This document shows positions 62,311 through 64,000 of a DNA stretch of 64,000 nt, in pieces. This stretch comes from an uncultured Pelagibacteraceae bacterium (GTDB taxonomy: Bacteria; Pseudomonadota; Alphaproteobacteria; Pelagibacterales; Pelagibacteraceae). The notes beneath the pieces are model-generated. The model was not told the DNA's origin. It did not search any database and saw only the letters and a list, made by a program, of their open reading frames with translations. The stretch covers positions 62,001 through 126,000 of the forward strand of contig CACOQN010000002.1 of the NCBI GenBank assembly GCA_902629285.1, in the 5' to 3' direction. Within the stretch, counting starts at the first letter, position 1. Each line of letters starts with the position of its first letter. Both the position numbers and the translations under genes were made by a program.

Positions 62311-62350
62311 TTCAATTATAACAAACGAATATAGTTATATTATTCTTTTG

Positions 62351-63136
62351 ATGGCTTTAACAGCTATTCCAGTTGGTTTTGTTGCTGGTCTGTTTGGAAT
62401 TGGTGGTGGATTAATCACTGTACCATTTCTATATTTTATATTTGGTTCTCTCGAAATTGATCCTCAATATATAATGCACCTAGCAGTTGGAACTTCTTTT
62501 GCAATAATAATACCCACATCTACGGTTTCAGTATTTACACATAATAAATTTAAGGCTGTTGATTTTGATATTGTTAAAAACTACGGTTTATTTGTTGTAC
62601 TAGGTGTGGTTGTTGGAACTATTTTTGCATCTTCTTTAAAAACAAAATCTCTAGTTTTATTTTTCTCTGTAATGATTTTATTTTTAGGAATTTACTTATT
62701 ATTAATAAAAGAGAAGGAACAAAACATAATTGTTAAGATGAAATTACACTTAAAAGTAATTCTTGGTTTTCTTGTTGGGTTTATATCTGCTCCTATGGGT
62801 ATAGGAGGAGCAGTAATGAATGTTCCTATTCTTAAGTTTTTTGGTTATTCAATAAATAAAGCTATAGGAAGTGCAGCAGCTATAGGTTTTTTAATTTCAC
62901 TATTTGGAGCAATAGGTTTTTTAATTTCAGGAAATTATTTAAATTCCAATCTTCCACTTAGTATTGGTTTTATAAATGTCCCTGCATTTCTAATTTTTAT
63001 ACCTATTACGACATTTATGGCCAGAATAGGAGCTAAAACAGTTCACAGTATTGATAAAAATAAAATTAGTAAGTTTTTTGGAATTTTTCTTTTAGTGGTA
63101 TCACTTAAGTTTTTTTACGAATATTTAAAGTTGTAA
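62351..63136 (+). CDS. TauE/SafE family sulfite/sulfonate exporter-like protein
   Basis: About 261 residues from the ATG at 62351 (a TTG one codon earlier is also possible), with seven or eight membrane helices. GFVAGLFGIGGGLITVPFLYFI and the repeat GFLVGFISAPMGIGGAVMNVPIL are TauE/SafE signatures. Family members export sulfite, sulfoacetate or other anions. A link to the taurine genes at 27-36 kb is possible but they are 26 kb apart. It follows dusA by 40 bases. Confidence 0.86.
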   Translation: MALTAIPVGFVAGLFGIGGGLITVPFLYFIFGSLEIDPQYIMHLAVGTSFAIIIPTSTVSVFTHNKFKAVDFDIVKNYGLFVVLGVVVGTIFASSLKTKSLVLFFSVMILFLGIYLLLIKEKEQNIIVKMKLHLKVILGFLVGFISAPMGIGGAVMNVPILKFFGYSINKAIGSAAAIGFLISLFGAIGFLISGNYLNSNLPLSIGFINVPAFLIFIPITTFMARIGAKTVHSIDKNKISKFFGIFLLVVSLKFFYEYLKL

Positions 63137-63141
63137 AATGT

Positions 63142-63179
63142 AAAAAAAAGAGGTGACTTCAGTCTCCCTCCATCACCTC
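63142..63179 (-). terminator. Intrinsic terminator of the minus-strand transcript
   Basis: GAGGTGA (63179-63173, read on the minus strand) pairs with TCACCTC (63156-63150) around a 16-base loop and is followed by a run of eight T residues (63149-63142). On the plus strand the hairpin is not followed by T residues, so it works towards the minus strand, away from the coiled-coil gene and towards the end of the tauE-like gene. Confidence 0.7.
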
Positions 63180-63225
63180 ACAATTAATCTTAGGTGATTC
63201 TCATAAAATCTATAAACACTTAATA
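63142..63225 (-). ncRNA. Candidate minus-strand small RNA in the tauE-like / coiled-coil intergenic region
   Basis: On the minus strand, TTGACA (63262-63257) and AATACA/TACATT (about 63239-63232) look like a sigma70 promoter. About 85 bases downstream a 7-8 bp hairpin is followed by eight T residues, a convincing intrinsic terminator. In the RNA a central AGGTGA (63178-63173) can pair either with TCACCT upstream (63197-63192) or with the identical TCACCT of the terminator (63156-63151), so two mutually exclusive folds exist. A very short reading frame (ATG then three codons) is present. No known RNA family is recognised. Confidence 0.5.
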
Positions 63226-63339
63226 GTTGTAAATGTATTTTATTAATTAATATTATTGTCAACAATCTAAAGTTGTACTAAAAACTCAATTTAGCCACAC
63301 ATTATATTTAGTATTTAAGTTTAATTGATACTTTAAAAT

Positions 63340-64000
63340 ATGGTTTCAATAAAAAACATTAATAAAAAGTTTAAAAAAAATTTATTTGATCCAATAGATA
63401 AAACAAAAAGTAAATTCTCCTCGTTTTTAAAAAATTATAAAAAAAATAAGATTAAAAAAGATCTAGCGTTACAAAAACAATTAGAAAAAGAAAAAAAAAG
63501 AGAGTTACTTTTAGAAAAAAAATTAGCAATAAAAGCAAAACAAAATGAATTAAAAGAAGAGAAAAAAAAAATTCTTTTTCAAAAAAAACTAATCATTGAA
63601 AATGAGAAGCAAGAAAAAAAAAATGAAGAAAAAAGACAAAAAATAGAAGCTCAAAGGATAAAAATTGAAAAGAAAAAAATTAAAGATGAAGAAACTAGAA
63701 AAATTAGAGAGGAAGCAAGAAAGCTTAAGCAGGAAGATTTAAGGCTCAAGATGCTTGAGAGACAAAGAATTAGAGAGGAAAATATTAAAATTAAAGAGGA
63801 AAAATTAAAAAATCAAGAACTTGAAGCTCAAAAAAGAAGAGATGAAAAAGAAAAGGAAAGACAAGAGAAATTAAGATTAAAAGAAATTGAAAAAAACAAT
63901 AGACTGGAAGAAGAACAAAGATTAAGAGAAGCAGCCAGAAAACTTGAATATGAACAAAAAAAACTCAAAGAAATGGAACAAAGATTAAGAGATCTTGAAA
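63340..64000 (+). CDS. Lys/Glu/Arg-rich long coiled-coil protein (partial, C-terminus outside window)
   Basis: An ATG at 63340 opens 220 codons with no stop up to the window end. After a basic N-terminus (SIKNINKKFKKNLFDPIDKT) the sequence is almost entirely Lys, Glu, Arg, Gln, Leu and Ile in heptad-like spacing from about residue 45, predicting one long charged alpha-helix or coiled coil. No membrane segment is visible in this part. The coding strand is very purine-rich. Similar helices occur in TolA-like, cytoskeletal or nucleoid-associated proteins; no specific family is assigned. Confidence 0.72.
   Translation, partial: MVSIKNINKKFKKNLFDPIDKTKSKFSSFLKNYKKNKIKKDLALQKQLEKEKKRELLLEKKLAIKAKQNELKEEKKKILFQKKLIIENEKQEKKNEEKRQKIEAQRIKIEKKKIKDEETRKIREEARKLKQEDLRLKMLERQRIREENIKIKEEKLKNQELEAQKRRDEKEKERQEKLRLKEIEKNNRLEEEQRLREAARKLEYEQKKLKEMEQRLRDLE

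Follow-up and report, generated by a model that had tools for sequence, protein, structure and literature searches.

Among known systems are bacterial trans-acting small RNAs that have an intrinsic terminator, and hairpins of the lambda boxB type, whose GNRA-like loops are bound by N. Conserved intergenic RNAs of SAR11 bacteria, to which the element reported here is similar in kind, appear in passages of Meyer 2009 (PMC2704228) and Stav 2019 (PMC6429828), and those passages do not describe it. It was found in a 64 000-nucleotide stretch of DNA from an uncultured Pelagibacteraceae bacterium, referred to below as the window. As judged from sequence comparison, it appears to be a small RNA gene of SAR11 bacteria that stands by itself on the minus strand; it combines a 5' box, the motif GAATC and a covarying 3' hairpin, occurs in many genomes and is mostly present in one copy per genome. 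On balance we think it likely that the hairpin of this RNA docks a host factor that phages also exploit.

The gap and the candidate small RNA gene

The gap is flanked by a gene of the TauE family (62348-63136, plus strand) and by a lysine-rich open frame that begins at 63340 on the same strand. This frame (63340-63999) is rich in lysine and glutamate and runs off the window; a Pfam search with it gave no match, and its relatives adjoin the RNA in many genomes. The features considered here are as follows, in window coordinates.

62348..63136, plus strand: convergent TauE-family gene (PF01925, 3.5e-45)
63142..63149, minus strand: T8, directly 3' of the hairpin in the window sequence
63143..63231, minus strand: proposed small RNA gene of about 89 nt, a conserved block in relatives, with inferred ends
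63150..63179, minus strand: terminal hairpin, stem GAGGTGA/TCACCTC, 96.8 % of cells paired, six of seven pairs changed on both sides
63161..63168, minus strand: invariant tip GGGAGACT, in 94/94 host homologues and 17/17 aligned host and phage hairpins
63192..63197, minus strand: upstream TCACCT, present in the window sequence and in 1/94 homologues
63196..63200, minus strand: invariant GAATC, 94/94 homologues
63217..63231, minus strand: conserved 5' box, here TACAACTATTAAGTG, from the alignment of 94; not retained in L011 and L052-L054
63239..63244, minus strand: -10-like AATAAA (in 22/64 non-redundant homologues [GTA]ATAA stands at a single fixed offset)
63257..63262, minus strand: TTGACA, present in the window sequence and not conserved

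The minus-strand hairpin and T8 that a sequence-only reading had reported are both present (63179-63150 and 63149-63142), and the transcript would indeed end close to the convergent TauE-family gene, with five bases between the T8 and the gene end at 63136. That reading had also proposed a TTGACA promoter. The hexamer exists at 63262-63257, but a promoter role is not borne out: a scan of the gap gave no sigma-70-like site on the minus strand, and relatives keep the -10-like AATAAA but not TTGACA. Transcription may instead start near 63231, from AATAAA, and would end at the T8. The 46-nt hairpin stretch was more stable than its own shuffles (z -2.65, 2/200); the 89-nt RNA as a whole was not (z -0.87, 40/200). 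No family in Rfam 15 reached its gathering threshold, the best weak match being AniS (21.5 bits against 50, E 0.11).

Homologues, structure and strand

Of 41 genomes compared with the gap DNA, 17 gave a match, and 15 of the 17 carry the element over a span of about 63142-63231. A covariance model (R1) gave matches in 160 of the 297 genomes of the order, with a single copy in 157, and the RNA was absent from the other 137. A second model (R2) found it in 94 of 154 genomes that were at least 90 % complete, spread over three of 11 genera, and in three of 385 genomes of a class-wide sample, all of them in the genus of the window. R1 was built from 14 sequences and R2 from 94 rows, and both recover their own seed rows by construction; alignment A3 omits L011 and so holds 14 of 15 rows. 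A stem-loop pattern gave at least 120 stretches in named genomes, and the 80 titled matches listed were all Pelagibacteraceae, Pelagibacterales or Pelagibacter; the window is accordingly taken to be SAR11 DNA. A model of the hairpin only again matched 94/154 SAR11 genomes, with two copies in two genomes, so that no further host site was seen.

For the homologue alignment 93 loci were supplied, the loci fetched being part of the R1 matches in the 297 genomes. Omitted from L001-L109 were L001 (the window), L013, L031, L034, L039, L040, L042, L043 and L045-L048 as near-duplicates or extras, and L016-L019 as other matches. Redundancy was reduced to 64 rows for the mutual-information, -10-box/competing-helix and strand-asymmetry analyses. 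L066 has two copies of the RNA (1008-1103 and 1488-1583), and second copies with altered tips occur at L144 4324-4420 and L143 2284-2378. Diverged tips in RNA-less genomes were considered and rejected: GGGAGACTGA was seen in only two of 22 genomes without the RNA, and by eye neither instance sits in a hairpin.

Stem cells were paired in 96.8 % of cases in the 94 homologues, against 84.2 % in shuffles, and an unguided mutual-information screen of the 64 non-redundant rows returned stem pairs as its top three signals. Signals at 10-73 and 10-16, which might have indicated further helices, look phylogenetic and were set aside. The tip GGGAGACU was identical in all 94 homologues. In the predicted fold an internal loop leads to a GAGA tetraloop of the GNRA type that sits on two pairs (GG/CU); the G-C pair that closes GAGA was present in the minimum-energy fold of 92/94 homologues and the stem in 93/94, the window being the exception. 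The covariation check on related genomes that had been suggested for this gap gave compensatory changes, with six of the seven stem pairs changed on both sides. The element is a conserved RNA structure outside coding genes, as expected of an intergenic small RNA gene.

The sequence-only reading had placed two mutually exclusive helices here, with the logic of a terminator/antiterminator switch. Within the window the alternative helix does compete: TCACCT at 63197-63192 can pair with AGGTGA, does so in the minimum-energy fold and leaves the stem a pair probability of 0.40. This pairing is essentially peculiar to the window, however. TCACCT occurs upstream in 1/94 homologues, a weaker ATCACTT helix is found in seven close relatives, and the hairpin is displaced in the predicted fold of 1/94, the window alone; the competing-helix score threshold was reached by 10/94 homologues, compared with 5.1 % of shuffles. 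The downstream neighbour was convergent in 93/94 rows according to an open-frame finder, which leaves no sense gene downstream for a switch to control. The homologue alignment thus contradicts the switch, which has next to no probability and was rejected, and by that alignment the rival helix with TCACCT is an oddity of the window genome. The other option of a relic of an attenuated leader is likewise not supported, as neither attenuator feature, a conserved competing helix or a regulated sense gene downstream, was found.

Strand was indicated by several features. A run of four Ts within 10 nt 3' of the stem was present in 63/94 homologues, against 3/94 on the opposite strand, and was missing in 31/94. 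The inner six stem pairs contained 31 G-U cells versus one A-C cell; the outermost pair points to the opposite strand, with no G-U and 12 A-C cells. The upstream neighbour either has the same strand, being pgm or a short lipoprotein-like frame, or is a divergent gene, as in the window; in the last case the RNA cannot be a 3' UTR, so that it cannot always be one. In some genomes of a second genus tRNA-Ser lies upstream of the RNA (two of three such loci scanned), namely a same-strand tRNA-Ser gene with the RNA at its 3' side in L072 (1147-1236) and L074 (918-1007). Among seven tauE loci from genomes without the RNA, four (L150, L152-L154) have the tauE and pgm stops about 10 bases apart or less, pgm having been recognized by eye from its C-terminus.

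The element might be merely an intrinsic terminator, either of the minus-strand pgm or common to the convergent genes, as the hairpin with its T8 and the convergent stop that adjoins it in many rows would suggest. We consider this unlikely, given that the tip and GAATC are invariant, that a third of the homologues (31/94) lack the T4 run and that the upstream gene is divergent in many rows. The option of a regulatory small RNA, which had also been raised from the sequence, is well supported by the homologues in many genomes, the compensatory changes, the strand-specific T-run and the contexts in which the upstream gene points away.

Two further genomes bear on earlier descriptions: G046 is presumably HTCC1062 and G012, which carries the RNA as an R1 match, is presumably HIMB5. 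The copy in G046 (1142940-1143036) lies within the gap 1142870-1143031 except for its last five bases. In the part of Meyer 2009 available, Table 1 assigns no RNA to this HTCC1062 gap, which had 29 BLAST hits and fell below the cut of 200 (PMC2704228). Stav 2019 refers to an sRNA of HIMB5 and to two candidates of high rank (PMC6429828), and since G012 has the RNA an earlier listing there is possible; the main text of that paper nowhere mentions phage. Searches of open-access literature found nothing on the hairpin element in phages.

The hairpin in phages

The stem-loop pattern scan revealed the same hairpin, between genes and in the sense direction, in at least 120 viral contigs. Among the 120 viral matches listed, the flanking genes were a phrog_2402-like gene and primase in 48, amidase and primase-helicase in 38, and capsid and tail protein in 25, with one flank alone recognized in three and none in six; flanks were searched on the strand of the hairpin only, with reference proteins from the same contigs. 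In 17 of these 120 matches the hairpin falls within an open frame of its own strand that spans 100 codons or more from stop to stop; such a frame may be the next gene extended in the upstream direction. By BLAST, the capsid/tail type was linked to 31 phage records, of which 26 are named Pelagibacter phages and five are uncultured; for the amidase/primase type there were 23 records, from 13 Pelagibacter phages, one uncultured phage and nine Pasteurella phages. When six host and 11 phage hairpins were aligned, the 8-mer GGGAGACT was invariant and all seven pairs changed on both sides.

Thirteen pelagiphage records were scanned, eight of them whole, two nearly whole and three partial (HTVC022P, HTVC027P and HTVC023P). 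The GGGAGACT hairpin was present in nine, HTVC019P, HTVC201P, HTVC021P, HTVC022P (partial), HTVC031P, HTVC109P, HTVC011P, HTVC027P (partial) and the T4-like HTVC008M, in which it is weaker (E 0.013). Seven of these nine phages went into model R3, which leaves HTVC022P and HTVC008M as its independent finds. No such hairpin was found in HTVC010P, HTVC200P, HTVC119P or the scanned part of HTVC023P, nor in P-SSP7, Syn5 or T7, the Syn5 match (E 3.2) being at chance level. GGGAGACT was the most widespread 8-mer hairpin loop in the pelagiphage records (8/13), a count that, like the others, does not represent independent events because the phages are partly relatives. Other recurrent hairpin loops were TAGAAATA and AACACAGA, each in six of the 13 records (L405-L422), and a weaker GGGAGACC hairpin lies within the RNA polymerase gene of HTVC019P and HTVC022P.

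The tip resembles the T7 start GGGAGA, and a phage promoter was therefore considered; it was rejected, since the stems show covariation and the host and HTVC008M have the tip as well. With regard to the terminator, the annotated T7 Tphi lies between capsid and tail gene, which is the site of the hairpin in some pelagiphages, but most hairpins among the 120 viral matches listed are without a T-run.

On the strand opposite to the hairpin, phage DNA at L405 8946-9019 (HTVC019P) and L168 8138-8211 has an adjacent tRNA-Cys sequence, possibly an attachment site. This neighbour in HTVC019P, together with an inverted repeat that is mostly single copy and shared with phages, could suggest that the element acts as DNA, for instance as a site of binding or recombination. 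That the T-run is asymmetric, that the inner stem pairs include G-U and that the flanking phage genes lie on the strand of the hairpin (the only strand searched) make this very improbable.

Candidate partner and comparison with known systems

Hfq, ProQ and CsrA were each found in none of the 10 genomes searched. On this sample of 10, an Hfq- or ProQ-dependent small RNA and a Csr/Rsm sponge were rejected. SAR11 cells have few regulators according to a published abstract, and in combination with the 0/10 counts a conserved small RNA points to an unrecognized partner.

Pairing of the tip with mRNA targets would agree with the small RNA architecture and with a tip that is conserved and purine-rich. 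The search for complements argues against it. The 9-mer complement gave 30 sites in 10 genomes, against 35 for the reversed pattern, with the RNA itself counted; three sites were common to two genomes each, and only the RNA itself to more. The 8-mer complement AGTCTCCC gave 22 sites in four genomes (G042, G043, G046 and G050) against 48 for the reversed pattern, which is an unmatched control for this count, and again only the RNA was common. The tip is, moreover, predicted to be closed, and we regard such pairing as decidedly unlikely.

A closed tip that never varies, carried on a stem that changes freely, would fit a hairpin on which a protein docks. The closed tip, the failure to find Hfq, CsrA or ProQ in the 10 genomes and the lack of a tip complement, other than the RNA itself, common to more than two genomes together favour a SAR11 RNA-binding factor. 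In the proposed small RNA, the hairpin capped by the GAGA tetraloop would dock an RNA-binding factor of the host that is none of Hfq, ProQ and CsrA, whilst the 5' half of the RNA would carry the regulatory contact. Phages, for their part, would have put this docking hairpin ahead of their primase or tail genes, and in that way would recruit the factor or titrate it. Since the unchanging tip is found in the hairpins of both bacterium and phage, the two may share one partner molecule. The wider reading, in which a single docking hairpin is displayed both by the small RNA of the host and by mRNAs from several kinds of its phages and either the phages hijack the factor or the host RNA withholds it, is held tentatively, as possible rather than probable. 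If true, it would mark a point in an RNA-level arms race in one of the most abundant bacterial groups of the ocean. The pelagiphage hairpin offers a way to ask how pelagiphages use host RNA machinery, and the 30-nt hairpin is a possible bait for fishing the partner factor.

The candidate gene is similar to those of trans-acting small RNAs in being short and intergenic, with its own promoter-like box and a 3' hairpin and T-run, but differs in that neither Hfq nor ProQ was found in the 10 genomes searched, in its invariant tip and in a hairpin common to phages. The hairpins of HTVC031P and HTVC109P occupy the same position as Tphi of T7, with capsid and tail genes on either side; unlike Tphi, the pelagiphage hairpin has a conserved tip and usually no T-run, and in other pelagiphages it precedes the primase. 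With lambda-type boxB it shares small size, a fixed tip of the GNRA type and a variable stem, whereas the SAR11 hairpin occurs in the host as well and in several kinds of phage.
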